Below are positions 32,720-53,490 of a stretch of 64,000 nucleotides of DNA, one piece after another. The notes beneath the pieces are model-generated. The model ran no database searches. It saw only the letters and a list, made by a program, of their open reading frames with translations, and was not told the DNA's origin. Position numbers and translations under genes: made by a program. The first letter of the stretch is position 1. Every line of letters begins with the position of its first letter. The DNA lies in contig CP134604.1 of the NCBI GenBank assembly GCA_021555105.2, positions 2,886,001 to 2,950,000 on the forward strand, read 5' to 3'. This DNA is from Thalassospiraceae bacterium LMO-JJ14. GTDB taxonomy: Bacteria > Pseudomonadota > Alphaproteobacteria > Rhodospirillales > Casp-alpha2.

Positions 32720-32740
32720 CATATTCGATTTTTATATATT
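32720..32740. promoter_or_regulatory. CATATTC motif in the tusA/yeeE divergent promoter
   Basis: CATATTCGATTTTT at 32720-32733 followed by ATATATT and GATAG. It sits between tusA (start at 32631, minus) and the TsuA-like gene (start at 32819, plus). The first 14 bases are identical to the element before the SoxH-like gene. Confidence 0.42.
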
Positions 32741-34436: not shown

Positions 34437-34477
34437 CGGTCGTAACTCCTTTACTTCCAGTGCCGCGCACCACTGAT

Positions 34478-35823: not shown

Positions 35824-35834
35824 CGTCTTCTCCC

Positions 35835-36584
35835 TCATTCGGCCGCTTGCGGCTGATCCAGTTTAAGCGCCTTGCGATGCTCGGCATCTTTTTCGGCAAC
35901 GTATTCCTCGATTGCGGCGCGGGCGCCGTCCCATCCCTTGGTGCGCGGACGGAGCACGCCCTGCATGCCCATTGCGAACAGCATCTTGACCGGCAGGTGA
36001 CGCAGCATGCGGCGCACCATTTCGATCAGCCAGTCCTGATTTAAGGATTGCTTGGTACGTGCAAAGAAGCCCCGGATGATCCGGCCTTCTTCTATCTTGC
36101 CCGTGGCGATAACTTGCGACGCGAACTCTTCATCAAAGTGCATCGATGGTGATTTCTCGGTGTGGCCCTTCAACTCGCACCAGTGCGACAACGCCTTCAT
36201 CACGCCTTCGGGATTGACGTCGCGCGGACAGGCATAGGTGCATTTATTGCAAGAAACGCACTGCCAGATGATGTCCTTGTCTCTAAGCAATTCATCTTCC
36301 ATGCCGAGACGCGCCAGATAAATCCAGTATCGGGGGTTAAAGTCGGGATTTACAGCGTTCACCGTACACGCGTTGGTGCACGATCCGCACTGCCAGCAGC
36401 GGTGTATGTATTCACCGCCGGGAAGTGCCGCGATTTCCTCCTGCATCTCCTCGTTATAGTCCCGAACGACGCGGGATTCGATGAAGGTACTCCAGTGTCC
36501 CGAAACATCCACACCGTCTATTTCCAGGTGTTCCTGTTCGATCAGGTTTTCGGGCCGGATCAGCGATTTCTCATGGATTGGCAT
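35835..36584 (-). CDS. hdrC2: sHdrC2, ferredoxin-like subunit of sHdr
   Basis: 249 residues with two 4Fe-4S motifs: CWQCGSCTNACT (about residues 63-74) and CVSCNKCTYACP (about residues 108-119). It passes electrons between HdrB2 and HdrA in the sHdr complex. The order hyp-hdrC2-hdrB2 matches known sHdr operons. It starts 18 bp after the hyp gene stop and ends just before hdrB2. Confidence 0.92.
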   Translation of the reverse strand: MPIHEKSLIRPENLIEQEHLEIDGVDVSGHWSTFIESRVVRDYNEEMQEEIAALPGGEYIHRCWQCGSCTNACTVNAVNPDFNPRYWIYLARLGMEDELLRDKDIIWQCVSCNKCTYACPRDVNPEGVMKALSHWCELKGHTEKSPSMHFDEEFASQVIATGKIEEGRIIRGFFARTKQSLNQDWLIEMVRRMLRHLPVKMLFAMGMQGVLRPRTKGWDGARAAIEEYVAEKDAEHRKALKLDQPQAAE

Positions 36585-36602
36585 AAATGCTTCCCTCGCG
36601 GT

Positions 36603-37472
36603 TCAGTGCGTCGTCTCGTCGATGTCGAGTATAATCGGCCGGCCCTCAATGCCCTTGGCACGGGTCCGCCCGGTTTCGGGGTCGATGCCCTCCAGGCCAA
36701 GCATCCGGCGCGTATACTGAAGCGGATCCTCTGCCGCGGAAAAGTCCGTACGCAAATAACTGCCGCCCTGTTCACAGATGTAATCGGCGTAGATTTGCGC
36801 ACAAAGGATATCCACATACGCCATCACGTCCCGGAAGACCCCGTTATCCGAAAGATACTGGCTCAACTCTTCGCGCAGCATCAGGAACGTGTCGTAATTG
36901 TCCGGCACATCCAGCGTCATATGGTCGATATTCGGGTCATGCCATAATTCACGGATCACACCCGTGTTGGCCTTCACATCCCAGACCCACCTGTTCATCA
37001 GCGGATAACGTTCGGGCATCACGCCATGCAGGATTTCAGCGGCGAGATCACGAACCCAGCGATACCCCCGGCCATCCGGAAATTTCTCACAGAAACGGCG
37101 CACGGCGTCATCGCACTCGCTCGCGGCCTGCGCCTGGTCCAGAAGCGATGCCACGGCCGTCCTGATTGTTTCCATGCCCGAGGTGCCCGCTTCTTCGAGC
37201 CAGGGACCGATACGGCGGCGCACCGGCGCCATAAAAGCGACGACGCTGAGAAACGTATCGATATCCAGCGCGTCGATGCCGTCACGCTTGAAGACATCGG
37301 CGACGACCTCGGACTTGAACTGCACGCCCCTGACAAGAAATTCGATCCCGCCGACACCTTCCGATCTCGAAACCACGGTTTCGAGTGCCGCAGCGAGTTT
37401 CGGCCCATCCAGGTGCAGGACTGGCCGGCTGGTACTTGCGATCGGCTTTCTAGATAAGATCATCCCATCCAT
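36603..37472 (-). CDS. sHdr-associated hypothetical protein (hyp between hdrA and hdrC2)
   Basis: 289 residues without signal peptide or cysteine-rich motif. The position between hdrA and hdrC2 is that of the conserved hypothetical gene in sHdr operons, so family identity is inferred from synteny. There are few cysteines. It lies 9 bp after hdrA and 18 bp before hdrC2. Start ATG at 37472 or the third in-frame ATG at 37463 are both possible. Role unknown. Confidence 0.8.
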   Translation of the reverse strand: MDGMILSRKPIASTSRPVLHLDGPKLAAALETVVSRSEGVGGIEFLVRGVQFKSEVVADVFKRDGIDALDIDTFLSVVAFMAPVRRRIGPWLEEAGTSGMETIRTAVASLLDQAQAASECDDAVRRFCEKFPDGRGYRWVRDLAAEILHGVMPERYPLMNRWVWDVKANTGVIRELWHDPNIDHMTLDVPDNYDTFLMLREELSQYLSDNGVFRDVMAYVDILCAQIYADYICEQGGSYLRTDFSAAEDPLQYTRRMLGLEGIDPETGRTRAKGIEGRPIILDIDETTH

Positions 37473-37481
37473 CCGATGTTC

Positions 37482-38534
37482 TTATTCCGCGGCCTGAATT
37501 TTGTTGCCGTTGGCGACAGCCAGGGCCGCCAGGGCCGCTCCCTGACCCTGGGCAATGGAATCGTCGATCGTCTCGGGGCCCGTTGCGGCACCGGCCACGA
37601 ACACGCCTGCACGAGACGTTTCCGCCATCGAGCTGTAGGTATCCATGCGCTTGATATGCCCATGTTGTTGCAGCTCGACACCGAAGATCGATGCAATCAG
37701 GACGTTGTCCACATTCGGGTCCATGCCAATGGCGTGAACCACCATATCGAACGGCACCGTGATCGGGCGCTTGACCAGCGTGTCTTCGCCTTTGACGATC
37801 AGCTTGTTCCCGTCCGACGTCACCTCGGCGATCCGCGCCTTGATGTACTTGATCTTAAACTCTTCCTGGCTCTTCCAGTAATACGTGTCCTCATAAAGAC
37901 CGAATGTGCGAATATCCATGTAATAGATATAGACGTGACAGTCCGGCAGCTCTTCACGAATTTCCATGCCGAGGTTGGACGACACGGTGCAGCATATTTT
38001 GGAGCACCACTCACGGCCGATCTGCCGGTCACGCGAGCCGACACAAAGCAAAATTGCAACCCGCTTCGGTTTACGCCCATCCGACGGACACCTGACGCCC
38101 GCACCTGATGAAATCATCTGCTCGACCTGGGTCGTTGTGACGACATCGGGGAAGGTGCCGAAACCCCACTCGGGTTTGTTGACGGAATCGAAATGAGTGA
38201 ACCCCGTGCAGAGCACTGCCGTCGACGCGTTGATCGACTCGCCATTCGAAAATTGAGCCGTGAAATCACCAGGCGTACCGTCGAAGGCCTGTACCATGGT
38301 ATCCGTATAGACCTTTATCGAGCCGTTGCCGGTGACACGATCGACCATGCCGCCAATGGCATCCTTCGCCCATTCGCCGCTCGGGACCAGCTTTGCGTAA
38401 CCAGACAATATCGGCGTGCCGCCCAGGCGATCCGCCTTGTCGACCAGGACAACTTCCTGACCGACCGATGCCAAGGCATGTGCAGCAGAGAGCCCCGCCG
38501 GCCCGGCGCCGACAACAAGAACAGGTTTAGTCAT
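37482..38534 (-). CDS. hdrA: sHdrA, FAD-containing heterodisulfide-reductase-like subunit
   Basis: 350-residue flavoprotein. N-terminal FAD motif VLVVGAGPAGLSAAHALASVGQ (about residues 5-26); C-terminal second nucleotide region with GVFVAGAATGPETIDDSIAQG (about residues 315-335) typical of HdrA. Shorter than methanogen HdrA and lacking its long Fe-S insert, as in sulfur oxidisers. ATG 38534 has GAGGAA 8 bp upstream; the frame also has a TTG start at 38549. Located between hdrB1 and hyp. Confidence 0.92.
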   Translation of the reverse strand: MTKPVLVVGAGPAGLSAAHALASVGQEVVLVDKADRLGGTPILSGYAKLVPSGEWAKDAIGGMVDRVTGNGSIKVYTDTMVQAFDGTPGDFTAQFSNGESINASTAVLCTGFTHFDSVNKPEWGFGTFPDVVTTTQVEQMISSGAGVRCPSDGRKPKRVAILLCVGSRDRQIGREWCSKICCTVSSNLGMEIREELPDCHVYIYYMDIRTFGLYEDTYYWKSQEEFKIKYIKARIAEVTSDGNKLIVKGEDTLVKRPITVPFDMVVHAIGMDPNVDNVLIASIFGVELQQHGHIKRMDTYSSMAETSRAGVFVAGAATGPETIDDSIAQGQGAALAALAVANGNKIQAAE

Positions 38535-38553
38535 GCTCAATTTCCTCAATCTT

Positions 38554-39903
38554 TTATTCAGCGGCCGCCTTAAAACCCGGCCCCGACGTAATCATGCGGC
38601 GCGGATCGTACAGATTTTCGCCATTACCCGCTTCGACTTCCTTGAGATAAGCCTCGAACTCGGCCTTCGATTTTTCCCAATCGATACCCATTTTCGCGAG
38701 CAGGGTCTCAACCGGTGAAGCATGCCAGTGCATTTGTGCGATCTTGTAAGGGTGTGCACCGCAAGCCAGCGCCGCAAATTGGCAATCTGCGACGACGGGC
38801 AGGGAAACACTCGATTTGTCGGACGCCTGGCTGATCCACTGGTTCTTGTCGAGCGTCGTGATGCAGCCGGTATCGTGGCCGATCATGACGTCGGATTTGG
38901 CTTCCTCGACAGCGACTCGGATTTTGCGGTCGATGGCAAACGAGCGGGTAAACTCTCGCTCGGAAATAATGTGACGGAAGCCGAAACCGCAGCAATCGTA
39001 CCATGTCGAATAGTCGATGACGTCTGCGCCCAGTTCCTGCATCAGGCCGGTCGACACCGCAACGCGGTTCCCTTCAAGAATATCATCGTCGTAGATCGCA
39101 TCCTCGGGGATCATCTTGTAGACGTGACAGGCCGGATGGACCGTGGCGCGGATATTGGAGACATCGATGGTCTGATGTTCCTTGATACGGTAGCGCATGG
39201 CGTGAAGCCATTCCGAGTAATGCACGATCTCTTCCGGGATCAGCAGCTTGCCGTCGACCAAACGGCCGAGTTTGCCGAGAATTTTCTTCACGCGCTCGCG
39301 CAATTCCGCGGAATGCAGCAGGAAGCCCCGAATTTCCTTATAATTGCCGAAAGACGTCCCGCAATGAACCAGCGGGTAATAATGGCCGCGGCCCTTACCC
39401 TCTGCTTCACCGGCGACGTAGGCCTGATGGAAATTACGGAGGAAAACGGCAGCCAGGCTCTCGACGTTGCCGATACCTGATCCATGGTAATTCCAGGCGG
39501 TGCAGGAGGTCTGGTCGGTCTCGTCCAGATACTCGATCCCCATCTGGTTCATCAGCCACAGCAGCGAGGTCGGATAGCCGGGAATATTACCGCACTGACC
39601 GCAGGATTTATGGTGCCACAACCGCGTTGTCGGGATTTTCTTTTCCCATCCGAACAGGGTGCGGAGCGTGATCGGCTCGTATTCATCGCGCATGCGATGA
39701 ACGATGATCTCGCCGTCCTTTTCAAGCTGCCACATGATGTCGCGGACATCCTCGACCCGGTCTTTGTTGGTCAGCATCGAGCGCTTGTCTACGCGCGCCT
39801 CAACCCACGAGGTGGCCGTCTGCGCCTGCTCGGGGCTGAGTTGAGCATCCCGCCATTCTGAACCGTGCCCGGTGAAACGTGTGTCGTCAGTTTGATCGCT
39901 CAT
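38554..39903 (-). CDS. hdrB1: sHdrB1, HdrB-like subunit
   Basis: 449 residues. Cysteine groups HKSCGQCGNIPG (about residues 97-108), TSCTAWNYHGSG and YDCCGFGF (about residue 303 on) resemble a CCG-type Fe-S binding protein; a longer and more divergent relative of HdrB2. Part of the cytoplasmic sHdr complex. It lies 51 bp after hdrC1, and hdrA follows 19 bp after its stop. Confidence 0.9.
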   Translation of the reverse strand: MSDQTDDTRFTGHGSEWRDAQLSPEQAQTATSWVEARVDKRSMLTNKDRVEDVRDIMWQLEKDGEIIVHRMRDEYEPITLRTLFGWEKKIPTTRLWHHKSCGQCGNIPGYPTSLLWLMNQMGIEYLDETDQTSCTAWNYHGSGIGNVESLAAVFLRNFHQAYVAGEAEGKGRGHYYPLVHCGTSFGNYKEIRGFLLHSAELRERVKKILGKLGRLVDGKLLIPEEIVHYSEWLHAMRYRIKEHQTIDVSNIRATVHPACHVYKMIPEDAIYDDDILEGNRVAVSTGLMQELGADVIDYSTWYDCCGFGFRHIISEREFTRSFAIDRKIRVAVEEAKSDVMIGHDTGCITTLDKNQWISQASDKSSVSLPVVADCQFAALACGAHPYKIAQMHWHASPVETLLAKMGIDWEKSKAEFEAYLKEVEAGNGENLYDPRRMITSGPGFKAAAE

Positions 39904-39954
39904 TTTCTCATCCTTTCGGTCGCCGCGCGCCTGTTTCGGGCGGGCAATTCCCTA

Positions 39955-40713
39955 TCAATCGTCGTCCTCGTCATCGTCCTGGTCTTCCAACCAGTCCTCA
40001 TAATCGTCACGCTTCTCGTCCATGATGTCCGAGATCACGTCGTACAGGTTTTCGTCGATTGTCTCGAGTTGCTCGAGAACACCGGTCATTTCCCAGATCG
40101 TATACAGTTCGACCGATGTCTTGAGGTTCACTTCCCAGGCCGTATCCGTGGTATTCAGGGTCGGCATGGGTATCGCCTGGCGCAGCAGTTTAAGCGGCGC
40201 ATCGACCTTCGAGATGTTCGGTCCCCAGTCCGGGAAGTGATCGGGCGTGATCATGTTCGGGGCAAGCTGGTTGCCGGTCGAAATCAGCTTCAGCATGACA
40301 CGGGAAAACGGCCGCAACACGTCCTTCGCGGACTGCATGCCATGCTTGATGGCAACTTCCCGCATGATCATCACCAAACCGCCCGGAGAGTTCCCGAAGG
40401 GGCAACGCGCGGCACAGGTATAGCATTGCGCGCAGGACCAGATTTTCTCCTGCATGGCATCGTGAATGCCTTCGAGATTCTCGGTCCATAGCAACTGCAC
40501 GATCTCTCGTGGACTGAAATCGTAATAATGAGCTGCCGGACAGGTCGCCGTACAGATCCCGCAATTCAGGCATCCGTTCAGTTCATGGTCATAACGCATG
40601 TCCGCCTGAATATCCTGGAACACCTTTTCCATGGTGTCGTAATCGACCGCCGGCTCCGCAGAGACGGGGTCGCCTATGAATTCCTGAATACGGCTTCCGC
40701 TTGCGTGGCTCAT
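39955..40713 (-). CDS. hdrC1: sHdrC1, ferredoxin-like subunit of sHdr
   Basis: 252-residue protein with two 4Fe-4S motifs: CLNCGICTATCP (about residues 48-59) and CAQCYTCAARCP (about residues 93-104). The C-terminus is a strongly acidic tail (about residues 232-252, Asp/Glu repeats), unusual for HdrC. It starts 10 bp after dsrE and is first of the hdr subunits in the operon. Paralog of HdrC2. Confidence 0.92.
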   Translation of the reverse strand: MSHASGSRIQEFIGDPVSAEPAVDYDTMEKVFQDIQADMRYDHELNGCLNCGICTATCPAAHYYDFSPREIVQLLWTENLEGIHDAMQEKIWSCAQCYTCAARCPFGNSPGGLVMIMREVAIKHGMQSAKDVLRPFSRVMLKLISTGNQLAPNMITPDHFPDWGPNISKVDAPLKLLRQAIPMPTLNTTDTAWEVNLKTSVELYTIWEMTGVLEQLETIDENLYDVISDIMDEKRDDYEDWLEDQDDDEDDD

Positions 40714-41246: not shown

Positions 41247-41969
41247 TTAGGGCTTGTCAGGTTTCGGCTGCATCAGCCCTGTGATCTGAATAACCCCGGT
41301 CATCATTTCGACCAGCGCATCTTCGATCGCCGGCGTTTTTTCGCTCAGCGCCTGCAGACCCGGCGCAATGACGTCTGGCGATTCTTCGAACTCCATCACC
41401 AAGTCTTCTATCATAGCGCGTTTTGCCCCCGGATGCCCAAGAAAACCCAAAGACGTCCCGCCCAGTTGAAACACGAGCGGCGCACCCGACGCATCAGCCG
41501 CCAGCACATCCGCATATGAGGGCAGAACCGGACGGTCGCGCATATAGATCGCCATCGGAAATCTATCCGGCATATACCCATTGAGCGCGTCTTGCTTGCA
41601 GCGCACGGCCTCGACCACATCGAATGTCAGCGGTGTCTTTTCAACCTTTCCACCGCCGCCGAGCGCAACGATCAGGGCGCCGAGACCGATGCCGATTTGC
41701 GGAATCCCAAGGGCCAGGCACTCGTGTGACAAGGCAACTTCGTTCGCCAGCGACGGCAAGTCCCGATCGCCCGCCGCCCCCCATGGACCGCCGCCAAGAA
41801 ATATGACGCCATCGACGAAGCGCGCCGACGGCGGCAATTTGCCGTCCGTCGTGTGCGGGCGAATATAGGTAAAGCGGATACCGCGCCCTTCAAAGTGATC
41901 TTCCATGCGCCCGAGGTATTCGCTATCGGTGTGCTGGATGACGTAAAGGTTGCGTTCCGGGCGTATCAT
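41247..41969 (-). CDS. Class I glutamine-amidotransferase-like protein without the catalytic cysteine
   Basis: 240-residue protein with the class I GATase fold: VIFLGGGPWGAAGD and QIGIGLGALIVALGGGGKVE (about residues 91-110). Where active enzymes have GxCxG, this has GIGLGA, so the nucleophile Cys is missing, and the His-Glu motif is altered to GHPGAKRA. It is thus probably not an amidase. The gene ends the lipoate-assembly group and its start overlaps the ligase stop by 4 bp. A GATase-like gene is a known companion of sHdr lipoate-assembly clusters. Confidence 0.8.
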   Translation of the reverse strand: MIRPERNLYVIQHTDSEYLGRMEDHFEGRGIRFTYIRPHTTDGKLPPSARFVDGVIFLGGGPWGAAGDRDLPSLANEVALSHECLALGIPQIGIGLGALIVALGGGGKVEKTPLTFDVVEAVRCKQDALNGYMPDRFPMAIYMRDRPVLPSYADVLAADASGAPLVFQLGGTSLGFLGHPGAKRAMIEDLVMEFEESPDVIAPGLQALSEKTPAIEDALVEMMTGVIQITGLMQPKPDKP

Positions 41970-43030
41970 GAAACACCCCCCGCCGCCGCTTCACGGATGA
42001 CACCGGCCAAAGCATCACCGGGCACCGTAATCGCCCCGCCGTCAGCAAGCACAGCGTCGATCGTGTCGCCGATGTTTTCCAGCGGTGCATCCTTCAGCGC
42101 CGCTTCCAGGTCAAAAACGAGGCGCGGCGGATTGGCGAAAAAATCACCGGTGATGAGCACTTGCTGAATACGCTGCTGGCCCCGGTGCAGGCGCAAATAA
42201 ACCGTTACGCTTCCACCGGGCGTGGTGATGCTCGCCGATTGGAAGCCGCTGTCGCTTTCCGGATCGTCGATTTCGGCGACAAAGTCATCCGTTCCGATTT
42301 CCTCGTCATGGATCTCCCGCGCCCGCGCCCATTCACGCTCGCTCACCTCTCCATCCTCGGCGCGGAGGCCGAGACCTGCTTCGAAGCCCTGCAACAATGC
42401 CTGCTTGGCCGCATCGATGCCCGGCGTCCTGTCGCCGAGCAAGGCACGCAGTGTGACAACCCGCTGTGCCGCGGAATCAAGGTCACGCTTGGCCAGCTTG
42501 GCTTGTGGCACCTTCAGCGCCTGCGCCATCACTTCCGGGTTGGTGTCGATCAGCAACGTCCCCTGATAGAACAGCACATCGCCATCGAAAAAGCCGCCGG
42601 TCCCGGATATTTTGCGGCCATCGACCTCGATATCATTACGTGGCCTGAAACGTGCATCGATCCCGAGCGTGCGCAGCCCTTCGGCCGCGGCGGTGCAAAT
42701 AAGCTCGGCCGTGGCCCCGAGATCCGGTGCCGGCAGCGACGCACGATGGAAAACCAGTTCCCAACCCAGTTGCCCTTCATCGAAGAATATACTGCCGCCG
42801 CCGGTGATCCGCCGCCCGAGCCCGATACCATTGGCGGCGCAGTAATCGACGTCGACTTCACGGCTTAAAGCCTGGTGCCGGCCGACCAGCGCAGTCGGCT
42901 TGAAGCGCAGAAAGCGGATGGTGTCGGGAATTTCACCGGACGCCCGCGCATCGATCAGCGCCTGATCGAAAGCAATGTTGAGCCGCCCGTGCTCGACCCC
43001 AGTGTCGATCACGCGGAAGATTTTACTCAT
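41966..43030 (-). CDS. Lipoate:protein ligase, sLpl(AB)-type
   Basis: 354 residues: lipoate ligase / biotin-lipoyl transferase fold with GRRITGGGSIFFDEGQLGW (about residues 72-90), KISGTGGFFDGDVLFYQGT (catalytic Lys region) and a C-terminal accessory LplB-like domain from about residue 245. It attaches lipoate or a precursor to LbpA. Location just after a radical SAM gene (10 bp) and before the GATase-like gene, with 4 bp overlap, fits the sulfur-oxidiser lipoate cluster. Confidence 0.87.
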   Translation of the reverse strand: MSKIFRVIDTGVEHGRLNIAFDQALIDARASGEIPDTIRFLRFKPTALVGRHQALSREVDVDYCAANGIGLGRRITGGGSIFFDEGQLGWELVFHRASLPAPDLGATAELICTAAAEGLRTLGIDARFRPRNDIEVDGRKISGTGGFFDGDVLFYQGTLLIDTNPEVMAQALKVPQAKLAKRDLDSAAQRVVTLRALLGDRTPGIDAAKQALLQGFEAGLGLRAEDGEVSEREWARAREIHDEEIGTDDFVAEIDDPESDSGFQSASITTPGGSVTVYLRLHRGQQRIQQVLITGDFFANPPRLVFDLEAALKDAPLENIGDTIDAVLADGGAITVPGDALAGVIREAAAGGVS

Positions 43031-43040
43031 CTTGCGCGGC

Positions 43041-44300
43041 TCAGTTCACGGTTTTCGGAAAACCCATTTGGCGGCGGACTTTCCGAATATCCGTCTTATT
43101 GGGTTGGAACGGGAAACTCGCAATATCGCTTGGCGGAGAGTCGCCGTACGGGCGGTCACAGGCGGATATGTCCTCCTGGAATTTACCCGGGCAGCCAGAG
43201 GTCCGGAACGGGAGGCCGGTATCGATGATGCCGTCCAGTTCGGCCTTCGGCAGGCCGAAATCGCTGACCCGGCCATGTTCGTCGAAGCTCATGTGCTCGA
43301 GCCGCACATTACAGTAATCGATGAGGTAGCGCGCCATCTGTACACGGCGCCATTGATCGCGGGGCGTCGCCGGAAGGTGGTCCATCAGCGAGCCTTTTTC
43401 AGGGAAGAAACAGAACATATGACTGTGTCCCCCCATATCGCGCAGGTCCTGGACGACCGAAAGAACATCGTGTTCGGTCTCACCCATGCCAACGATCAGA
43501 TGCGCACCGAATTTTTCCTTGCCGAAAATGTCACGCGCATCGTTGAGGATTTCCCAGTACTTCTTCCAGGTGTGCGGCGACTGCACGCCCTTACCCCGAG
43601 TGCGGTCGAAAAGCGTCGGTGTCGCCGCGTCCAGGGCAACGGTAAAGATATCGGCGCCGAGACCGTGCAGTGTTGCGACATCGTCTCTCTGCATGGTCGT
43701 CGGGTTCGATAAAATCGACACCGGCACTGTTTTCGGATCGATCCGGTCGGTCCAGGCCTTGAGCACGGATACCGTATCCGCATCCGAGTTCGGATGCGTG
43801 ATCATGCTGATGCACATCCGATGGAACGGCGTGTTCTCGCCATCCGCTGCGACTTTTTCAATAATTTCCGCGACCGGTACCGACGGCCAGTCGACGCGGA
43901 TAAAGTTACGGTCGGCATAATCACGATCGGCTTCACGATGGCGGGCCAGACCGCAATAGGCACAATTCGCGCGGCAGCCTTCGGGATACGTCAGCAGAAG
44001 ATTGAGACACCGCGTACATTCGCAACGGTACATCTTGCCGGCCATGATCCCGAGCGTGATCGCCGCCGCCGTCGACATCTGCACGTATTCAGGCGAGCGC
44101 ATATCCGGCGTCTGGATATTGTTGTTGGGCAAATAGACGCCGCTCGGCGTCGCCGCCTGCGACTTGACCCTACCCCCGTTGCGGAGTTCAGCGGGCGTTT
44201 TATCCGGGCTGCGCGGCGCCATCTCGTCATAGGCATTGAAGTCCATGCCTTTCGCCGTTTTGTCTCCAGGCATTTTGCCCTCGGGCTTTAAACAGGTCAT
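43041..44300 (-). CDS. Radical SAM lipoyl synthase-like protein (LipS2-like by position)
   Basis: 419-residue radical SAM protein. The cluster motif is CRANCAYCGLARHRE (CxxxCxxC, about residues 109-123), preceded by CECTRCLNLLLTYPEG, which may hold a further cluster. In sHdr lipoate clusters two radical SAM proteins together insert sulfur into octanoyl chains; assignment as LipS2 rests on gene order. ATG 44300 overlaps the lipT stop by four bases (ATGA); a longer frame starts at 44339. Confidence 0.8.
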   Translation of the reverse strand: MTCLKPEGKMPGDKTAKGMDFNAYDEMAPRSPDKTPAELRNGGRVKSQAATPSGVYLPNNNIQTPDMRSPEYVQMSTAAAITLGIMAGKMYRCECTRCLNLLLTYPEGCRANCAYCGLARHREADRDYADRNFIRVDWPSVPVAEIIEKVAADGENTPFHRMCISMITHPNSDADTVSVLKAWTDRIDPKTVPVSILSNPTTMQRDDVATLHGLGADIFTVALDAATPTLFDRTRGKGVQSPHTWKKYWEILNDARDIFGKEKFGAHLIVGMGETEHDVLSVVQDLRDMGGHSHMFCFFPEKGSLMDHLPATPRDQWRRVQMARYLIDYCNVRLEHMSFDEHGRVSDFGLPKAELDGIIDTGLPFRTSGCPGKFQEDISACDRPYGDSPPSDIASFPFQPNKTDIRKVRRQMGFPKTVN

Positions 44301-45406
44301 GCCGCGTTTCCCCTTACCAAAGTCGTTTCGTCGTTCCAATATTCTTCGTATGCAATCCAGCCGCGCCGGAAATCCGCCGCCGTTGCCTCACCGCTGCCAA
44401 GGGCGCCGAGCAATTCGCACCGACGCCGCACCGCCCTGTTCAAGGCCGGATCGAAAATGGCGGCAAGTTCACTTTCAAAATCGTCAAGGCTGTCTTCGTC
44501 GCCGTCCAGCCATCCAACCGCTGCTTCCCCGGCGAGCCCGCCGGAGATCACCGCCGACGCAATTCCGCCACCCGTCACCGGATTGGCAAGACCGCATGCG
44601 TCGCCGCAAAGTAAAACCGCCGTGTCCCCGAGCATGGCATAACTGAAAAGCCGTCCACCGACCGGGATTGCGCCGCCGGTATAAGACAACACCTCCGCGC
44701 CGACGCGCCCCTGGGCGACGAGATCTTCGTGGAGTTCGTTCAGGTAGTCCTTCAATACGGTGCGGGCACACGGGATCACGCCCGCGCCCAGGTTCGCAAC
44801 GTCGCCCCGCGGGAACAACCAGGCGTACCCGCCTGGCAGTTGTTCGCTAAGGAATATATCCGTGGCGTCGTGGGCGCGAAGCAAAGGCACCGTCAACTGG
44901 CGCGTCTCCACCATGTCGGTATTAACTGCACCGATTGCCGCGCCGACACATGAACGCGGGCCATCGCCGCCGATCAGTACCGGGGCTTTCAGGGTCTGGC
45001 CATCAGAAAGGTGCACAGCACCATCCTCTGCGATGGCTGCGATCTTGACCCCGAACCGGCAATCGCTCCCCGCATGGATGGCGTCCTCGACAAGCCGGCG
45101 GTCGAACGCTTCCCGGCTGATCATACGGCCCGGGAAATTCTCCGTCCGCTCGCATGTCTCGCCTTCGATAAACGTTTCCATGGCGTTGATCCGCTGGCGC
45201 GTAACGGCATCCAGTTCGCCAAGTTCCTGAGATACCATGGTCGGAATGAATTCAGCGCATTGCACCGGCATCCCGGCGCGGCGTTTACGTTCGAGCGCGA
45301 TAACGCGCTTGCCCTCCTTCGCCGCCGCCGCTGCAGCGCGCGCGCCGGCCGGCCCCAGACCGGCGACAATTACATCAGCGTCAAAGTTTTCACTTACGCC
45401 GCGCAT
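44297..45406 (-). CDS. Geranylgeranyl-reductase-like FAD oxidoreductase (LipT-like)
   Basis: 369-residue flavoprotein of the geranylgeranyl reductase group. FAD motif ADVIVAGLGPAGARAAAAAA (about residues 10-29), GGDGPRSCVGAAIG and CGDACGLANPVTGGGIASA near residue 270. It sits between two radical SAM genes, overlapping each by 13 and 4 bp, as LipT-type genes do in lipoate assembly clusters of sulfur oxidisers. It may supply reducing power for sulfur insertion. Confidence 0.8.
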   Translation of the reverse strand: MRGVSENFDADVIVAGLGPAGARAAAAAAKEGKRVIALERKRRAGMPVQCAEFIPTMVSQELGELDAVTRQRINAMETFIEGETCERTENFPGRMISREAFDRRLVEDAIHAGSDCRFGVKIAAIAEDGAVHLSDGQTLKAPVLIGGDGPRSCVGAAIGAVNTDMVETRQLTVPLLRAHDATDIFLSEQLPGGYAWLFPRGDVANLGAGVIPCARTVLKDYLNELHEDLVAQGRVGAEVLSYTGGAIPVGGRLFSYAMLGDTAVLLCGDACGLANPVTGGGIASAVISGGLAGEAAVGWLDGDEDSLDDFESELAAIFDPALNRAVRRRCELLGALGSGEATAADFRRGWIAYEEYWNDETTLVRGNAA

Positions 45407-46431
45407 GAAGACCCTTTCTCAAGGCTCAGACTGCCGCCGATCTTGATCGAGCAGCACGCATGTTCCTGATGATGCGCACGCCCTAACGCCTGCGCTAACG
45501 CTGCCGTACCGTCGGCAGGAAAAGCAATGCCATCCAGACCGGCCATGACGGCATAGGCATCGGTGACACGTTTGTGCATACCGGCAGGACGCGCGCACCC
45601 TAACAACACTTGCCGGTCGGGCAGCCTGCGACGCGCTTCCAGGAATACATGGCCGACGTCGGATGTGGGTGTCGTCACGAAGGTCCGGTTCTTGGCATAA
45701 AACGGCATGACGACGACCAGGACCAATGCATGCACATCGTGGCGCGAGACGATGTCGAGAGCGTTTTCCTCACCCAGCAATTCACCGTAGTGAAGGCCGA
45801 TCACGATATGCGGCACGATCTCCATGGACGTCGAGACCAACGCCGCAAGGGTCGCTTCGAAATCTTCTACGGGACGGTCGAGATGATAGACGTCGCGGAT
45901 GGTTTCCTGTGCGCCGATCACATCCATCATCGCCGTATCCACGCCGGCGCTTTCCATCAGCTTCGCACGTTTCTCATCAAGCAACGCGGTGTGGATTGCG
46001 ACCTTAAGGTCCGGGTAATCGCGTTTCAGGCCTTCTATCACCGGATAAAACCGCTCGTAAGCAATCTCGTTTTGCCGGTTGGACCCGCCTGAGAGCAGGA
46101 AGCCCTTTAAATCCTGCAGCATGATGAGGTCTCGGACTTTCTGATCCAGCATTTCGGGAGACGTTGCCGGAATCATGGGCTCGAGTATTTTGGCTTCGCA
46201 ATGATCACACATCAGCGCACAGCCGCCGGCGGTGATCGAAAATGCAGGGAAACTGTTCTTCGAACAGCCTTTCATCTCGGCGGATTCGAAATCCTTGAAG
46301 GTCGGTGTCGAGAAACGGATCGGCCGCGAGAGTGCAAGTGCCTGTTCACGCTCGAAAGCATTCACAAGATCACGGTCGAACTCGGCGTCCTCGTATTCTT
46401 CAATCGCCGAAACGGCGTCAATCCAGGCCAT
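45394..46431 (-). CDS. Radical SAM lipoyl synthase-like protein (LipS1-like by position)
   Basis: 345 residues. The cluster motif is GGCALMCDHCEAKIL (CxxxCxxC, about residues 69-83), with SITAGG before it. First gene of the lipS1-lipT-lipS2-ligase-GATase chain; it overlaps the next gene by 13 bp. It lacks an obvious octanoyl-binding signature, so the lipoyl-synthase role is from gene neighbourhood and the family. Motif GAATATG is 44 bp upstream, and the HDAC-like gene ends 76 bp upstream. Confidence 0.8.
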   Translation of the reverse strand: MAWIDAVSAIEEYEDAEFDRDLVNAFEREQALALSRPIRFSTPTFKDFESAEMKGCSKNSFPAFSITAGGCALMCDHCEAKILEPMIPATSPEMLDQKVRDLIMLQDLKGFLLSGGSNRQNEIAYERFYPVIEGLKRDYPDLKVAIHTALLDEKRAKLMESAGVDTAMMDVIGAQETIRDVYHLDRPVEDFEATLAALVSTSMEIVPHIVIGLHYGELLGEENALDIVSRHDVHALVLVVVMPFYAKNRTFVTTPTSDVGHVFLEARRRLPDRQVLLGCARPAGMHKRVTDAYAVMAGLDGIAFPADGTAALAQALGRAHHQEHACCSIKIGGSLSLEKGSSCAA

Positions 46432-46460
46432 CTCTATTCTCCCTGCGCCACGGAGCTTTT

Positions 46461-46481
46461 ATTATATAAAAATTGAATATG
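46461..46481. promoter_or_regulatory. CATATTC-type motif upstream of the lipoate-assembly genes
   Basis: ATTATATAAAAATT followed by GAATATG at 46475-46481, 44 bp upstream of the first radical SAM start. On the gene's strand it reads CATATTCAATTTTTATATA, nearly the same as the tusA/yeeE element. It suggests that the group can be transcribed separately from the upstream HDAC-like trio. Confidence 0.42.
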
Positions 46482-46507
46482 TATCGTGGCATTTTTTATT
46501 TTTTGGA

Positions 46508-47629
46508 TCAAACGACTTCTCTCCAATCGCTTCCAGTGTCACCGATCAATGCGGCGACTTCTTCGCGCACCGGCGCTTTGTTTGGTGCGTCATCCAGCCG
46601 CTCCCGCCAGGCTTGATCGATGTCTTCTTCGTCAACCAGATCGCATTCGATTTCGTCGAACCGAACCTTGATTTTCTCCGGCACGGGCCATGGCGGCGTC
46701 CTGCCAGAAAGCCGCCCCCAGAGCCCCGACCAGCAACGTGCCACGGTCCACGGATTGTACCCGCCGCCACCAAGAACGACGGCGCCGGGAACCCGTTCGG
46801 TGACAGCTGTGACCGCATCCCAGAGCGCAACATTCGAGAGCATCATACCCGAGAGCGGATCCCCGGCCAACGCGTCGGCACCGCACGTGATCACGGCGAC
46901 ATCGGGTTTGAGTTCCTCGATCATCGGCAGAACGGCGCCCGACATCAACGCCGCCAGTTCGCAGTCGTTGAAGCCCTTCGGAACAGGATAATTGTAGGCA
47001 CCGGCTCCCCTGCCGCCATGCGCGGTCCCCGTCCCGGGCCAGCGTGCGCGCTCATGAATAGAGAGCGTGACGACGCGCGGCTCATCCAGGAACGCGGCCT
47101 CGACCCCATCACCATGGTGGGCATCGAGATCAAGATAGAATATCGACCCCGCACCGCCGTCCAGCAATGTCATGATCGCCATGACCGGATCGTTGAAGTA
47201 ACAGAAACCGTGCGCATGGTCCGGCATGCCATGATGGGTGCCGCCTGCGGGGTTGAAAGCCACGCAACCAGCAAGCGCTTTTTCAGCCGCCAGAATAGAG
47301 CCGCCGCAAGTTGTCCGGGCGCGCTGTTCCAGACCTTCGAAAACCGGGTTTTCCATGGTTCCCAGTTGATACCGCACGCGGTCGTTTTCTTCCGCCCGCC
47401 CTGCCATGGCGACCCGTTTCACGGCCTCAAGATAATCGCGGTCATGGAACCGCAGCAGCGCCTTGTCATCGGCCATCGGACTGTCGAGATAATTTTCATC
47501 GAGCCAGGACATCGCCTCGCAAATCTCGAGCACGAGACCCACTCTTGGAATCGCCAAAGGGTGGTTGGCGCCGAAACCGGGACGGCGATAAATGTCACCG
47601 CCGACAAAAAACGGCCCGGCTGTTTTCAT
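46508..47629 (-). CDS. Histone-deacetylase-like (AcuC/class I HDAC fold) deacylase
   Basis: 373-residue zinc amidohydrolase of the HDAC fold. Visible active-site blocks: GGTHHGMPDHAHGFCYFND (His-His pair, about residues 129-147), YLDLDAHHGDGVEAAF (metal Asp/His, about residues 164-179), ITCGADALAGDPL and GGGGYNP. All catalytic residues look intact. Cytoplasmic. The start overlaps the diiron gene stop by four bases, and the stop is 76 bp before the lipoate-assembly genes. Bacterial relatives act on acetyl-lysine, polyamines or acetoin-related substrates. Given the neighbours, an acyl-lysine of the lipoyl protein is a possible target, but that is inference. Confidence 0.85.
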   Translation of the reverse strand: MKTAGPFFVGGDIYRRPGFGANHPLAIPRVGLVLEICEAMSWLDENYLDSPMADDKALLRFHDRDYLEAVKRVAMAGRAEENDRVRYQLGTMENPVFEGLEQRARTTCGGSILAAEKALAGCVAFNPAGGTHHGMPDHAHGFCYFNDPVMAIMTLLDGGAGSIFYLDLDAHHGDGVEAAFLDEPRVVTLSIHERARWPGTGTAHGGRGAGAYNYPVPKGFNDCELAALMSGAVLPMIEELKPDVAVITCGADALAGDPLSGMMLSNVALWDAVTAVTERVPGAVVLGGGGYNPWTVARCWSGLWGRLSGRTPPWPVPEKIKVRFDEIECDLVDEEDIDQAWRERLDDAPNKAPVREEVAALIGDTGSDWREVV

Positions 47630-48498
47630 TGCACGCTCGCCGTCGCCTGCGGATTATTCGAGAAACGCTTGTCTATCAGCTTCATTGCAGGCTCGGCGCA
47701 ACTCTCGGCCAACGACCGCCCGGCCGGGCTTCGGTGCGCCTGGCGCCAGACCTCCCGTGCGTTCGGAAATTGAAGCGCTTCCAGACTCTGCAAACTCGGA
47801 AACAGGGTCGCACTCAAGAAGCGCCGGATCAGCAGCTTCGTCAGCAGCCGGAACCCGGCACGCTCAACAGCCGACATCGCTTTGATTTTTTCGCCGAGCA
47901 GCGCTTTCGCCGCGGCAATGTGGCGGGCTTCGTCGGCGTGGTGCCACTGCATCACTTGGCGGGCCAGCGGGCAGATCGCCTGCCCCTCTCCGTCGGCTTC
48001 TTTCAGCGCTTTCAAGGCAAACGTATCGGTTACCGACTCGCCGATAAAGACCATGGCCCAGAACCCGGCACCCTTCGGATTCAGCATTTTCGCGACGGTG
48101 GTCAGTAGTCCGGTGGGCCCCAGCAGATGCTTGCCGCTCATCCCGGCCCGCTCGATCATTTTCAGAAACATAAGGCTGTGACCGGTCTCTTCGCGTACTT
48201 CCTGCAGAACAATCTGCGTCTCCAGCGTGTCGGCGGCGACAAAGCCCGCATGCGTGACCCGGTGAATCATCAAACCTTCCAGCCACAAACCGGCAGCACA
48301 CAAGCGCGCAAATTCGACGCGCGAGACCTGGCGTTTCTTGTTTTCGTCCAACTCGTTCCAAACGGGAAGGCTGGAAAGGCTGATCATGCTATCTGGCAGC
48401 CACGGCAGTTCGGGATCGGCGCCTGCCCAGTCGATCTCGTTCATCGGATCCTTGTAAGGCGGCACGGCGGCCGCAAGACGGTTGAAAATCGTACTCAT
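47626..48498 (-). CDS. AurF-like diiron oxygenase
   Basis: 290 residues, helical, with a ferritin-like diiron pattern: VLQEVREETGHSLMFLKMIE (about residues 97-116), FIGESVTDTFALKAL and WHHADEARHIAAAKALL. This is the AurF/diiron oxygenase type, which oxidises amines or hydroxylates organic substrates. Coupled to the genes on both sides by four-base overlaps (ATGA). No substrate can be named from the sequence. The role in a sulfur or lipoate context is not known to me. Confidence 0.75.
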   Translation of the reverse strand: MSTIFNRLAAAVPPYKDPMNEIDWAGADPELPWLPDSMISLSSLPVWNELDENKKRQVSRVEFARLCAAGLWLEGLMIHRVTHAGFVAADTLETQIVLQEVREETGHSLMFLKMIERAGMSGKHLLGPTGLLTTVAKMLNPKGAGFWAMVFIGESVTDTFALKALKEADGEGQAICPLARQVMQWHHADEARHIAAAKALLGEKIKAMSAVERAGFRLLTKLLIRRFLSATLFPSLQSLEALQFPNAREVWRQAHRSPAGRSLAESCAEPAMKLIDKRFSNNPQATASVQ

Positions 48499-49550
48499 GC
48501 AGTTACCGCCTTCCGTACATCAGATAATCCGCCGGCCCGCTGCCGCCACGCCTCACCAAGCAATTTCAGCGAGCGGGCAACCTCGTCGGGGAGCAGATCA
48601 CCACCGCCGCAGACCAGACTGACGCGATCCAGCCCCGCCGTCTCGAGTGCGGACAGCCGGGCGGTCACATGTTCGGGATCACCGACCGCCGCGAGGCCCA
48701 ATCGCTCAAGCACGGCGATCGACAGCATCTTGTCGAGCAACGGCACCGTCCACCCCAGTTGCCGGTAATGCTCATATCCCTCGACCTGCTTCGACAGCAT
48801 CGGCTTGGCAATCTCGAACAGCCGGCGGTAGACCCATACAATCCCACGCCGGGCGCGTTCACGTGCCGCTTTATGATCCTGCTCGCAGTAAACCGAAAGT
48901 GTGAACGATGTCTGCCCGCCGGCACAGGCCTTCCGGTAGCGGGCCAGATCCGCATTCACAAACGCCCACGGCTTGAACGGCCCGGTCATCACATTGAGGC
49001 CCTGCTGTGCGGCGAACGTAAACGTCTCGGGGCTGACCGCTGCAATCCACCCCTGATCAAGTCCACCCGGAACCGGCGGGTAAATGGGAAGCCTCTGCGC
49101 ATCGCGCTCGGCATGCCCGGTGCTTAAAATGTCCTGCAATTGCGCAAACTTGGCCTCAAAAATCTCACGGCTCTCGGCCGGGTTTATGCCAAAGCCGGCA
49201 AGTTCGGTTACCGTCACGCCGCGACCAACGCCCCACCGCACGCGGCCAGGCGCCAGTGCATCCAGCGTCGCCAGCCGCTCGGCAACCCGGACCGGGTCGT
49301 GCAGCGGCAGCGGAATGATCGCAAAACCGAGATTAATGCGCTTCGTCGCCTGGGAAACGGCCGCCAGCAACATATCAGGCGCGGCGGCATTCGAATAACC
49401 TTCGAGAAAGTGATGCTCGGGGAGCCACAGCGTATCCATGCCGGCAGCCTCTGCAGCGACCGCGATTTCGACCGTATCGCGTATGACGTCCGCAGGCGTC
49501 TTGGATATCCATGGCGGCGACGCCAGCTCCAGAAACAAGTCCAGTTTCAT
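48495..49550 (-). CDS. Luciferase-like (LLM class) flavin-dependent monooxygenase
   Basis: 351-residue bacterial-luciferase-fold protein with WLPEHHFLEGYSNA (about residues 42-55), GFAIIPLPLHDPVRVAERLA and WGVGRGVTVTELAGFG. Uses reduced flavin and oxygen on carbonyl, sulfur or other organic groups; members include sulfonate monooxygenases, so organosulfur substrates are plausible. First gene of a three-gene unit with the diiron oxygenase and HDAC-like genes, all joined by 4 bp overlaps. It is 78 bp downstream of the rhodanese gene. Confidence 0.85.
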   Translation of the reverse strand: MKLDLFLELASPPWISKTPADVIRDTVEIAVAAEAAGMDTLWLPEHHFLEGYSNAAAPDMLLAAVSQATKRINLGFAIIPLPLHDPVRVAERLATLDALAPGRVRWGVGRGVTVTELAGFGINPAESREIFEAKFAQLQDILSTGHAERDAQRLPIYPPVPGGLDQGWIAAVSPETFTFAAQQGLNVMTGPFKPWAFVNADLARYRKACAGGQTSFTLSVYCEQDHKAARERARRGIVWVYRRLFEIAKPMLSKQVEGYEHYRQLGWTVPLLDKMLSIAVLERLGLAAVGDPEHVTARLSALETAGLDRVSLVCGGGDLLPDEVARSLKLLGEAWRQRAGGLSDVRKAVTA

Positions 49551-49628: not shown

Positions 49629-50000
49629 TCAGGTATCGACCGGGCCATCAATCTCGGTCCATGCATTGAATGTTTCGAGGGTGCGGACATCCTTGTATCC
49701 AAGGTCCAGAAGCGCGGCGCCGCAAAGCGCAGCCCGCGCCCCGGTGGCGCAATAGACTATGATTGTCTCGGCATCCTCAAAGTCGTCATTGAACAGCGGC
49801 GAGGCTTTATCCGCCTTGAACTCCAGGGTGCCGCGGGAAACATGTAAAGCACCTTCAATTTTACCGCCCCTTGCGATCTCGTGCTCATCACGCACATCAA
49901 CGATCAGCACATCGCTGCGACCGGCCAGTTCCTTGACCTCTTCCGCGGAAATCGTGCTTAACCGCAGCTTTGCCGCCTTAACTTTTTCCATTATCGACAT
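49629..50000 (-). CDS. Cytoplasmic rhodanese-like protein
   Basis: 123-residue single rhodanese domain with the active-site loop VYCATGARAALCG (Cys about residue 83) and the structural VDVRDEHEIARGG. No signal peptide. Could move sulfane sulfur in the cytoplasm. Its start overlaps the end of a small upstream reading frame; AAGGGGGAA precedes the ATG. Followed by the LLM/diiron/HDAC unit on the same strand. Confidence 0.85.
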   Translation of the reverse strand: MSIMEKVKAAKLRLSTISAEEVKELAGRSDVLIVDVRDEHEIARGGKIEGALHVSRGTLEFKADKASPLFNDDFEDAETIIVYCATGARAALCGAALLDLGYKDVRTLETFNAWTEIDGPVDT

Positions 50001-50194: not shown

Positions 50195-50215
50195 AATATA
50201 TATTATATGAATATG
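50195..50215. promoter_or_regulatory. CATATTC-type motif upstream of the rhodanese genes
   Basis: AATATATATTATAT followed by GAATATG (50209-50215), 48 bp upstream of the small reading frame. An ATTC half-site is at 50182-50185. AT-rich surroundings. Confidence 0.4.
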
Positions 50216-51843: not shown

Positions 51844-52022
51844 GCCTTCGGGAGCAAGTACCCGTTTCTGAGAGCGATACTTTCTCAGCACCCGCGATAT
51901 TGAACCCCGGAGCGGATAGGAGCGACTTCACACCCTTTGCCAGCAAATCCCTGTTTCCGGCTGCCATTTGAGTTATATTATGACGGCAAGCTTATGCATC
52001 CAGTTTTTGGAGGATAGTGATC

Positions 52023-52646
52023 ATGGCAATGTCACTGCCGGAAATCATCAATGAGTGCGAGGGAATGGAAGCGGCAGAACTTTTGCGCTACCTCGTCGTC
52101 GATAAATTTCCCGGCAAGGTCATGGTCACGGCATCTCTTCGTGCCCGAAGCGTGGCAACGCTCCGACTGATTGCGGATATCGATCCGGCGACACCGGTCG
52201 TATTTTGCCACATGAAAAACGTCTTCCAGGAAAGCCTTGAGTATAAATCGACGATTATTGAAGAACTGGGTCTGACGGATGTCAGGGCCCCGGCTGAAGA
52301 TCCTGGAATTATACACGGAGATTCTTATCACTGTGAAAACCTGTGGGGCGACGATCCCGACGACGGCACCCGCCGATACTCCACGATCCCCTTGAATGAA
52401 ACGCTCAAACCCTTCGATTGCTGGATCAGTGCCGTGTATCACAATCCCTACACATACGAACCGCGTCCGAAGTTGTCAGCGGAGGGCCGTATCCTTCGCG
52501 TTCATCCTTTGGCCGGCTGGACGCAAGACGAAGTGCGCGCATATCTGAAAGAACGCAATCTACCGTTCCACCCCAAGGCGATGCAGCTGGTTCACCAAAA
52601 CATCGCGCCCACACCTTTCATCCATACCGACGATTATCATTACTGA
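52023..52646 (+). CDS. PAPS/APS-reductase-fold protein lacking the catalytic C-terminal motif
   Basis: 207 residues of the adenine-nucleotide alpha-hydrolase fold seen in CysH, with the C-terminal block GRILRVHPLAGWTQDEVRAY (about residues 160-179) and WGDDPDDGTRRYSTIPLNETL. It lacks the ECG(I/L)H motif and the paired cysteines that bind the Fe-S cluster in APS reductases, so it is not a normal assimilatory enzyme. It may bind APS or ATP in another role. The ATG at 52023 was chosen (GGAGG 9 bp upstream); a GTG at 52017 is nearer the site. Confidence 0.7.
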   Translation: MAMSLPEIINECEGMEAAELLRYLVVDKFPGKVMVTASLRARSVATLRLIADIDPATPVVFCHMKNVFQESLEYKSTIIEELGLTDVRAPAEDPGIIHGDSYHCENLWGDDPDDGTRRYSTIPLNETLKPFDCWISAVYHNPYTYEPRPKLSAEGRILRVHPLAGWTQDEVRAYLKERNLPFHPKAMQLVHQNIAPTPFIHTDDYHY

Positions 52647-52716
52647 TTATTGCGGCCTGAGTTTCAAAAGTGACGCCTCCCCAAACCCCACCGCCTGAAA
52701 TAACGACGTTGTTTTC

Positions 52717-53490
52717 ATGATCATCGCACAAATATCGGATACCCATATTGATCCCGCGCACGAAAACGGGCCGGCACGCCTCGGCGACCTTGAGGCGTGT
52801 GTCGAAGACATCAACGCATTGGAACCGGCACCGGATCTCGTGATTCATACAGGCGACATGGCCCACGATGGGGATGAAGATAAATATCGCCTGGCGCTTG
52901 GCATCCTCAAGAATCTTAAAATGCCGTTGTTCATCTGCGCGGGAAACAGAGACGAGCGATCGTTGTTGACCGAGCGGTTCAGCATTGGACGCCGCCTGAT
53001 GCCCGACGCCCCATACGTTCAATACGTCGTCGATGATTTTCCGGTGCGTCTGGTCGCTCTCGATACATTGAGTGAACAAAGCAACCAGGGTTCATATTGT
53101 CAGGACCGGGCGGATAATTTGCGTGGTTATTTGTCATCGGACACGTCGAAACCAACGGTGGTTTTCATGCACCACCCGCCGTTCGAAATAGAGGAATCCG
53201 CATATCCCCGTCAGTTTGAGTCGTGGGAAAGCGCGGAACGTCTTGCCGGTGCGCTCAAAGGCCAGAACCACGTCGTGCGAGGTTTTTGCGGGCATTCCCA
53301 CCGTCATGCCGTGGGCACCGTCGCCGGTATTCCCTTCAGCACCGTCCCCAGCGTCGCCCGTGACCTTCGCTTGGGCGATTTTGCACCGGAGATGACGGAT
53401 ACCCCCGTCTACCACCTTCATACGTTCAATGGAGAAGATGCCTTCAGAACGGAAATACGCCCGGCATCGAAGCGCGCGTTTACTGTATAG
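52717..53490 (+). CDS. Calcineurin-like metallophosphoesterase (CpdA-like)
   Basis: 257-residue dimetal phosphoesterase with the full set of motifs: SDTHIDPA (about residues 7-14), HTGDMAHDGD, CAGNRDERS, HHPPFEIEE and FCGHSHRHA. Similar to cyclic-nucleotide phosphodiesterases of the CpdA type; other phosphate esters are possible. It follows the CysH-like gene by 70 bp on the same strand, and overlaps the convergent SlyD-like gene by 11 bp. Confidence 0.85.
   Translation: MIIAQISDTHIDPAHENGPARLGDLEACVEDINALEPAPDLVIHTGDMAHDGDEDKYRLALGILKNLKMPLFICAGNRDERSLLTERFSIGRRLMPDAPYVQYVVDDFPVRLVALDTLSEQSNQGSYCQDRADNLRGYLSSDTSKPTVVFMHHPPFEIEESAYPRQFESWESAERLAGALKGQNHVVRGFCGHSHRHAVGTVAGIPFSTVPSVARDLRLGDFAPEMTDTPVYHLHTFNGEDAFRTEIRPASKRAFTV

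Follow-up and report, generated by a model that had tools for sequence, protein, structure and literature searches.

The window analysed here, 64,000 nucleotides of the genome of Thalassospiraceae bacterium LMO-JJ14 (a single contig of 3.89 Mb, 99% complete), carries three genes for a luciferase-like flavin monooxygenase (LLM), an AurF-like diiron protein and a deacylase of the histone deacetylase (HDAC) family next to genes for lipoate assembly. All three reading frames lie on the minus strand, begin with ATG and are coupled by 4-bp overlaps (47626–47629 between the HDAC and AurF genes, 48495–48498 between the AurF and LLM genes). Transcription runs from LysR and rhodanese genes through LLM, AurF, HDAC and lipS1, so the trio sits upstream of the lipoate genes; lipT, lipS2, slpl(AB), a lipX-like gene, shdrC1-B1-A-hyp-C2-B2 and lbpA follow. 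The original prediction, made from the letters alone, had placed three overlapping genes 76 bp before the lipoate genes, and we confirmed its coordinates (Table 1). We found that, in alphaproteobacterial clusters for lipoate assembly, an HDAC gene repeatedly lies upstream of lipS1: most sampled alphaproteobacteria with lipS1-type genes carry an HDAC-like gene beside them, and some also carry the predicted oxygenase pair.

We called LipS1 with the NF053742 profile at E 1e-20 or 140 bits, a threshold at which 2 of 14 control genomes also score; no match anywhere exceeded the NCBIfam cut-off. LipS1 was present in 8 of 398 genomes drawn from the phylum and 10 of 385 drawn from the window's class. 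Together, the two draws held 15 distinct LipS1 genomes of that class, the window's included, and one of another class (G122), which has no HDAC gene beside lipS1. Linkage was counted from tblastn layouts of the window proteins on the fetched LipS1 regions. In 11 of the 15 class genomes, an HDAC gene preceded lipS1 in the same orientation. It was the nearest matched gene in eight (G000, G125, G180, G370, G452, G486, G497 and G729), with gaps of 80–186 bp by match ends, and was separated from lipS1 by one YeeE gene in three members of a single genus (G678, G765 and G836; L268–L270). Ten of these 11 genomes lack LLM-AurF there, and neither gene was matched at any of the 14 loci other than the window's. 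Near the HDAC-lipS1 genes of G497 we also observed a FadL/TodX-type outer membrane transporter gene (L216:6176-7498), and NiFe hydrogenase genes after the lip genes. In G838, an acyl-CoA-dehydrogenase-like flavoprotein gene (Acyl-CoA_dh_2; L264:8385-9590) directly precedes lipS1, and the 19.9-kb L264 stretch showed no match to HDAC, LLM, AurF or shdr genes.

In the window's GTDB family, strong LipS1 matches occurred in 9 of 48 genomes, and HDAC matches of at least 420 bits in six, all among those nine and in none of the other 39. An AcuC-type paralog scoring about 290–350 bits was also found in LipS1-free family genomes. A strong LipS1 match and AurF were both absent from the seven genus mates that we searched, of which two are less than 70% complete. 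The locus is therefore patchy, a pattern suggestive of transfer into the lineage or of repeated loss.

Linkage of the oxygenase pair was surveyed with 38 AurF relatives as queries. Among the best 80 of 133 AurF places, 17 were close (at least 43% identity) and 63 distant (about 30%). Every close locus with downstream sequence contained lipS1 (13/13), directly after AurF in six and behind an HDAC gene in seven; the other four contigs end within 8 bp downstream. LLM lay upstream in all 16 close loci with upstream sequence. The number of independent cases is smaller than this, because each of the pairs L024/L025 and L028/L042 seems to represent near-duplicates or parts of a single genome. All nine LipS1 genomes of the window's family have AurF ahead of lipS1 or HDAC-lipS1. 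In G034 and G120 the gene is a fragment at a contig end, and for G121 it was read from record L021, which we equated with G121 by matching coordinates. A search of 37 family genomes matched AurF in 7 of 7 with LipS1 (that of G034 being a 21-bit fragment counted by place) and yielded two weak matches, of 24 and 21 bits, in the remaining 30.

Distant LLM and AurF genes lie mostly away from lipoate genes, though in LipS1 genomes. Among the 63 distant AurF loci, three had lip or shdr genes, a fourth (L072) had shdr genes and twelve had LLM. We considered a common function among the distant-AurF neighbours and rejected it: none was shared by most, although ABC and Mla genes recurred in L044 and L075, with LLM near. 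Co-occurrence was assessed in 50 of the best 80 AurF genomes (6 of the 17 close, 44 of the 63 distant). LipS1 scored above 140 bits in 45 of these 50, compared with the phylum-draw background of 8/398, with kinship inflating the counts. LLM reached at least 207 bits in 46 of the 50, a count that stands without a matched background control; the next LLMs there scored at most 110 bits, except in G088, where a further copy reached 241 bits. In 20 beta- and gammaproteobacterial LLM loci (L145–L164), clusters of ABC, MlaE, MlaD and epimerase-like neighbours, annotated through one representative apiece, recur in 13–14 loci each. Some of these loci also carry genes for MlaC and an outer membrane efflux protein.

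The data thus resolve the trio into an HDAC module and an LLM-AurF module, both of which go with LipS1, although no one of the three genes is present in every LipS1 genome. The original prediction had presented the trio as a unit beside the lipoate genes. Its association with lipS1 stands, but an obligatory trio does not, since HDAC-lipS1 without LLM-AurF and LLM-AurF-lipS1 without HDAC both occur. The prediction would have fallen had most trios lain elsewhere than beside lipoate genes; the neighbourhoods of the lipS1-linked HDAC group and of the close AurF and LLM relatives came out in its favour.

Table 1 Features of the window discussed in the text.
Feature	Position	Strand	Basis
HDAC-family (classical Zn-dependent) deacylase, predicted acyl-lysine hydrolase	46508–47629	-	Pfam PF00850 Hist_deacetyl, E 2.4e-63
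AurF-like diiron protein, predicted oxygenase	47626–48498	-	Pfam PF11583, E 5.7e-42
LLM, luciferase-like flavin monooxygenase	48495–49550	-	Pfam PF00296 Bac_luciferase, E 2.3e-48
76-bp HDAC-lipS1 gap with motif CATATTCAATTTTTATATA at 46463–46481	46432–46507	-	
lipS1, radical SAM lipoyl synthase component	45394–46431	-	NF053742, E 2.5e-54, below cut-off
lipT, geranylgeranyl-reductase-type FAD oxidoreductase	44297–45406	-	TIGR02032, E 1.1e-51; named by position after PMC10332631
lipS2, radical SAM lipoyl synthase component	43041–44339	-	NF053743, E 3.2e-54, below cut-off
slpl(AB), lipoate/octanoate:protein ligase	41966–43030	-	PF21948, E 5e-45
lipX, glutamine-amidotransferase-like	41247–41969	-	NF005458, E 1.9e-15, below cut-off; no Pfam match; named by position after PMC10332631
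shdrC1-B1-A-hyp-C2-B2	34888–40713	-	Fe-S, CCG and FAD domains in that order; named by order, as in published clusters
lbpA, GcvH-like lipoate carrier	33996–34511	-	PF01597, E 1.5e-33
Rhodanese, upstream of LLM	49629–50000	-	PF00581, E 4.6e-17
Weaker motif copy upstream of rhodanese-LLM-AurF-HDAC	50195–50215	-	One mismatch to relaxed pattern

With lipS1, lipS2, lipT and slpl(AB) clustered beside shdr and lbpA, the window holds an sLpl(AB)-LipS1/S2 assembly locus. Its LipS1 (184.7 of 230 bits) and LipS2 (184.4 of 270 bits) are strong matches that stay under the NCBIfam cut-offs, and a Pfam search of the hyp protein of the shdr cluster gave no match. Between the LysR gene and apr genes (52017–53490) lie genes for a PAPS-reductase-domain protein and a calcineurin-like phosphoesterase.

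The HDAC protein has the hallmarks of a classical zinc-dependent deacylase. Its model (predicted local distance difference test, pLDDT, 93) adopts the arginase/deacetylase fold, with Aquifex HDLP (1c3r) as the best match (template modelling score, TM, 0.90). Residues H132, H133, D169, H171, D252 and Y291, together with G141, F142 and C143, are invariant in 32 aligned sequences. Alignment to HDLP and a published motif list assign them as the His-His dyad, the Asp-His-Asp zinc ligands, the catalytic tyrosine and the GFC motif. In the foot pocket, AGGTHH and GGGGY replace the RPP motif. The text of PMC11532494 connects the replacement of RPP, with xGGxHH and GGGY present, with a foot pocket that can accommodate longer acyl chains, as in AcuC, HDAC11 and a de-decanoylase of V. 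cholerae. The original prediction of an HDAC-fold enzyme with acyl-lysine chemistry is supported as far as catalytic residues go, and the predicted pocket appears compatible with C8 or lipoyl chains.

Many named top homologues of this protein are labelled 'AcuC'. In a tree, lipS1-linked and AcuC-type proteins fall apart. One branch (support 100/97) separated 20 lipS1-linked rows, of which L027 lies closest to the AcuC side, from 25 AcuC-type rows (7 from the family, 18 class-level). Rows were hand-picked and included 11 further homologues but neither distant HDACs nor the remaining AcuC rows of the family; the root is arbitrary. An earlier, narrower tree had placed the lip group at two changes, and a single clade was neither rejected (p 0.389) nor established by it. 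The linked group is marked by position 248 in the TCGAD stretch, which lies four residues ahead of D252, the predicted zinc ligand. Threonine occupied it in 19 of 19 readable linked rows (L216 was unread), as against glutamine in 15 of 15 family AcuC rows and in 8 of 18 class-level AcuC rows, those eight being the ones caught by a T-or-Q pattern. Of the 119 top homologues, 111 carry T at position 248, six carry V and two C; none carries Q. GGTHH, tried as a mark of linked proteins by contrast with the family's GGQHH, failed when class-level AcuC proved to carry GGTHH too. We also rejected the idea that the HDAC of G517 is an unlinked lip-type copy: it scores 394.8 bits, close to the lip-type protein of G125 (398.5), but has QCGAD and groups with AcuC. 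Bit scores alone therefore do not part the HDAC groups outside the family.

The model of the AurF-like protein has a pLDDT of 92. Its best fold match is AurF (2jcd, TM 0.65–0.70), followed by CmlI and R2-like ligand-binding oxidases. Residues E74, E104, H107, E154, H186, E190 and H193, which we take to be iron ligands, are invariant in alignments of 38 and 28 sequences, and the HxxxExxH pattern is present. For LLM, the best solved relatives are luciferase alpha chains, including the alkanal monooxygenase alpha chain 8cbb (E 3e-24). Alkanal monooxygenases convert an aldehyde to an acid.

An operator-like pattern, CATATTCRATTTTTATATA, was written from two window sites, one at 32720 before a YeeE-type gene and one in the HDAC-lipS1 gap; both therefore match by construction. 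A whole-genome search returned seven sites within three mismatches; the reversed pattern, run as a control, returned none. The third-best copy (one mismatch) lies 56 bp before a second YeeE-type sulfur-transport gene elsewhere in the genome (L302:3060-4181), although the adjacent, divergent rhodanese-domain gene extends across this copy in its longest frame. A relaxed motif, drawn after seeing the sites, found five window sites, one of them upstream of the rhodanese gene that precedes LLM, compared with none in shuffles. Across 23 lip loci, counted without a chance control, the CATATTC core in either direction occurred before LLM in seven (L014, L019, L020, L021, L025, L026 and L224), before lipS1 in four (L013, L015, L264 and L265) and near neither in 12. 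It appears again between the lipX-like and shdrC1 genes in L021, L024, L025 and L224. The original prediction rightly saw a motif in the gap; its suggestion that this might make the two gene groups independent fares less well, because relatives carry the same core before LLM, which argues for shared regulation, as judged from sequence. The text of PMC10451225 and PMC12423496 describes the H. denitrificans repressors SoxR and sHdrR tested on probes that include the lipS1 upstream region; SoxR bound four of five. Those results point to a sulfane-sulfur regulon, and by analogy the motif is likely part of one; a word search of the text of both papers did not find the motif sequence. Sigma-70 promoter-like and terminator-like sites were set aside, with 5 and 13 found against 5.3 and 11.0 expected.

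From gene order, conservation, co-occurrence, predicted folds, residues and the motif we infer two reactions, their substrates and an editing role. According to the text of PMC10332631 (Tanabe et al. 2023), sLpl(AB) can attach either octanoate or lipoate, and the sulfurs are added by LipS1/S2. In the scheme that we favour, sLpl(AB) would place octanoate on LbpA, LipS2 and LipS1 would then insert both sulfurs, and the HDAC protein would cleave octanoyl, thio-octanoyl or lipoyl groups from the LbpA lysine that carries them. It would thereby act as an eraser or editor, clearing misloaded or half-finished carriers for reloading. The text of PMC10332631 reports that the last sulfur-insertion step is inefficient in E. 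coli, leaving heterologous LbpA at the mercapto-octanoyl stage; this stall was seen with genes of a gammaproteobacterium that the paper shows without an HDAC gene, so it exemplifies stalling and is not evidence for editing. LLM-AurF, a second module present in this cluster in some lineages, would likely use O2 and reduced flavin to make or trim free C8 acid for sLpl(AB). We propose this supply because the best solved relatives of LLM are alkanal monooxygenases, and it is the weaker half of the explanation. A deacylase gene that adjoins lipS1 near a shared motif would be best explained as a resetter of stalled carriers. For the combined reading, in which HDAC edits LbpA and LLM-AurF helps to supply octanoate, we put the probability at roughly 0.45. 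The bolder version, in which a zinc-dependent HDAC-family delipoylase or deoctanoylase and an O2-dependent, octanoate-making LLM/diiron pair constitute a write-erase-supply line outside LipA/LipB, we consider doubtful. These recurrent cluster partners bear on where free octanoate for LbpA comes from and on whether misloaded carriers are edited. If an HDAC-family enzyme does act on a cofactor, the meaning of bacterial 'AcuC' annotations would widen.

Several observations weigh against carrier editing and octanoate supply. HDAC is not beside lipS1 in 4 of the 15 class genomes (G517, G688, G722 and G838), nor between AurF and lipS1 in 6 of the 13 close AurF loci. Among 20 mostly beta- and gammaproteobacterial lip loci (L165–L184), in 19 of which lipS1 comes after lbpA, the sole HDAC is a partial one 10 kb off in L176. 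A Burkholderiales locus, L079, is a beta case in which HDAC adjoins lipS1. H. denitrificans likewise has no HDAC gene beside lipS1; in the text of PMC10451225 and PMC12423496, shdrR and lipS1 share one intergenic region there. The pathway therefore runs without HDAC. The nearest characterised kin of the HDAC protein (class I, AcuC) are deacetylases or promiscuous, and AcuC-type paralogs share the foot-pocket signature, which is therefore not decisive for long-chain use. As for the pair, AurF and full-length LLM occur together in one of the eight phylum-draw LipS1 genomes, the window's, with up to six AurF or five LLM candidates scored per genome; the pair can therefore not be a general requirement for octanoate supply. 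Weak AurF matches of 72 and 46 bits came from two genomes without LipS1, and partial LLM profile matches (145–215 bits, covering at most about 250 of 341 positions) from 17. In beta- and gammaproteobacterial genomes, LLM adjoins Mla-type transporter genes, not lip genes. Lastly, linkage would look the same whether these genes serve lipoate assembly or sulfur oxidation by sHdr.

Four other readings were considered. LLM and AurF could supply sHdr with sulfane sulfur by oxidising a hydrophobic or organic sulfur compound, with no part in lipoate assembly and a separate role for HDAC. The LLM superfamily includes sulfur-compound monooxygenases, with DszA (5tlc) a weak match of LLM; the two genes co-occur with LipS1 even when unlinked, and the beta/gamma LLM adjoins MlaE, MlaD and ABC genes. 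We nevertheless think this unlikely, given that close LLM-AurF relatives are joined to lipS1 and that the best solved LLM relatives are alkanal monooxygenases. Rather unlikely, too, but with slightly more to recommend it, is that HDAC works as an AcuC-like deacetylase, taking acetyl or short acyl groups off a lysine of LbpA or sLpl(AB) and so unblocking the carrier or ligase without removing the cofactor. Its sequence and fold are class I/AcuC-like. AcuC deacetylation switches on AMP-forming acetyl-CoA synthetase (text of PMC11532494), and lipoate ligases likewise work through acyl-AMP (text of PMC10332631). This explanation sits poorly with the separation of lipS1-linked HDACs from an AcuC-type paralog kept by the same genomes, and with T in place of Q before D252.

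Alternatively, HDAC could act on a small N-acylated compound, for example an acyl-polyamine or an acyl-amino acid, and the octanoate or other acid released in this way would feed sLpl(AB). The attachment of octanoate or lipoate by sLpl(AB) (text of PMC10332631) would suit such a source, as would the FadL-type gene near HDAC in L216. The HDAC family does include polyamine deacylases, but the text of PMC11532494 places the polyamine deacetylases in cluster 4 (annotated ApaH in 1c and 1d) and gives them a gatekeeper motif, and we regard this reading as improbable. That the trio and the lipoate genes are chance neighbours might be argued from the 76-bp gap with its own motif and from the seven genus mates searched, which lack AurF and LipS1. 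Linkage conserved in several families, co-occurrence and the shared motif oppose it, and the conservation counts already contradict it, making coincidence a very remote prospect.

Carrier editing with octanoate supply would add to a described system. The published sLpl(AB)-LipS1/S2 assembly names LipS1, LipS2, LipT, sLpl(AB), LipX and LipY, and the main text of PMC10332631 mentions neither an oxygenase nor a deacetylase. A deacetylase also goes unmentioned in the main texts of PMC12423496, PMC10451225, PMC11582611 and PMC6067878, and the text of PMC11532494 does not mention lipoyl or lipoate. In the texts of the openly available papers searched, we did not find sHdr, lipS1, lipoate or lipoate-binding proteins paired with luciferase, diiron, deacetylase or acetoin utilization proteins. 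LLM resembles the bacterial luciferase alpha chain, its best solved sequence match, in an alignable EHHF region. It differs in being a single gene with a conserved PFKPW motif; no second LLM occurs among the annotated neighbours, so the alpha/beta pair with lux genes that defines bacterial luciferase was not found there. The diiron protein shares its Pfam family, fold and HxxxExxH pattern with the N-oxygenases AurF and CmlI, but at 18–19% identity to AurF (2jcd) over the fold alignment and a profile E of 7.3e-5, an arylamine substrate is not expected. With Aquifex HDLP and bacterial AcuC, the window HDAC has in common the fold, the catalytic residues and the GG-HH and GGGY motifs. It differs in belonging to the lipS1-linked group, with T for Q before D252, in a genome that keeps a separate AcuC-type paralog. 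The same chemistry as we propose, removal of lipoyl from a carrier lysine, is known from sirtuins: the text of PMC5596343 describes CobB and SrtN as lipoamidases, CobB acting also on the glycine cleavage complex. Sirtuins are NAD-dependent and of unrelated fold, whereas the window HDAC is a predicted zinc hydrolase encoded within the assembly cluster itself.

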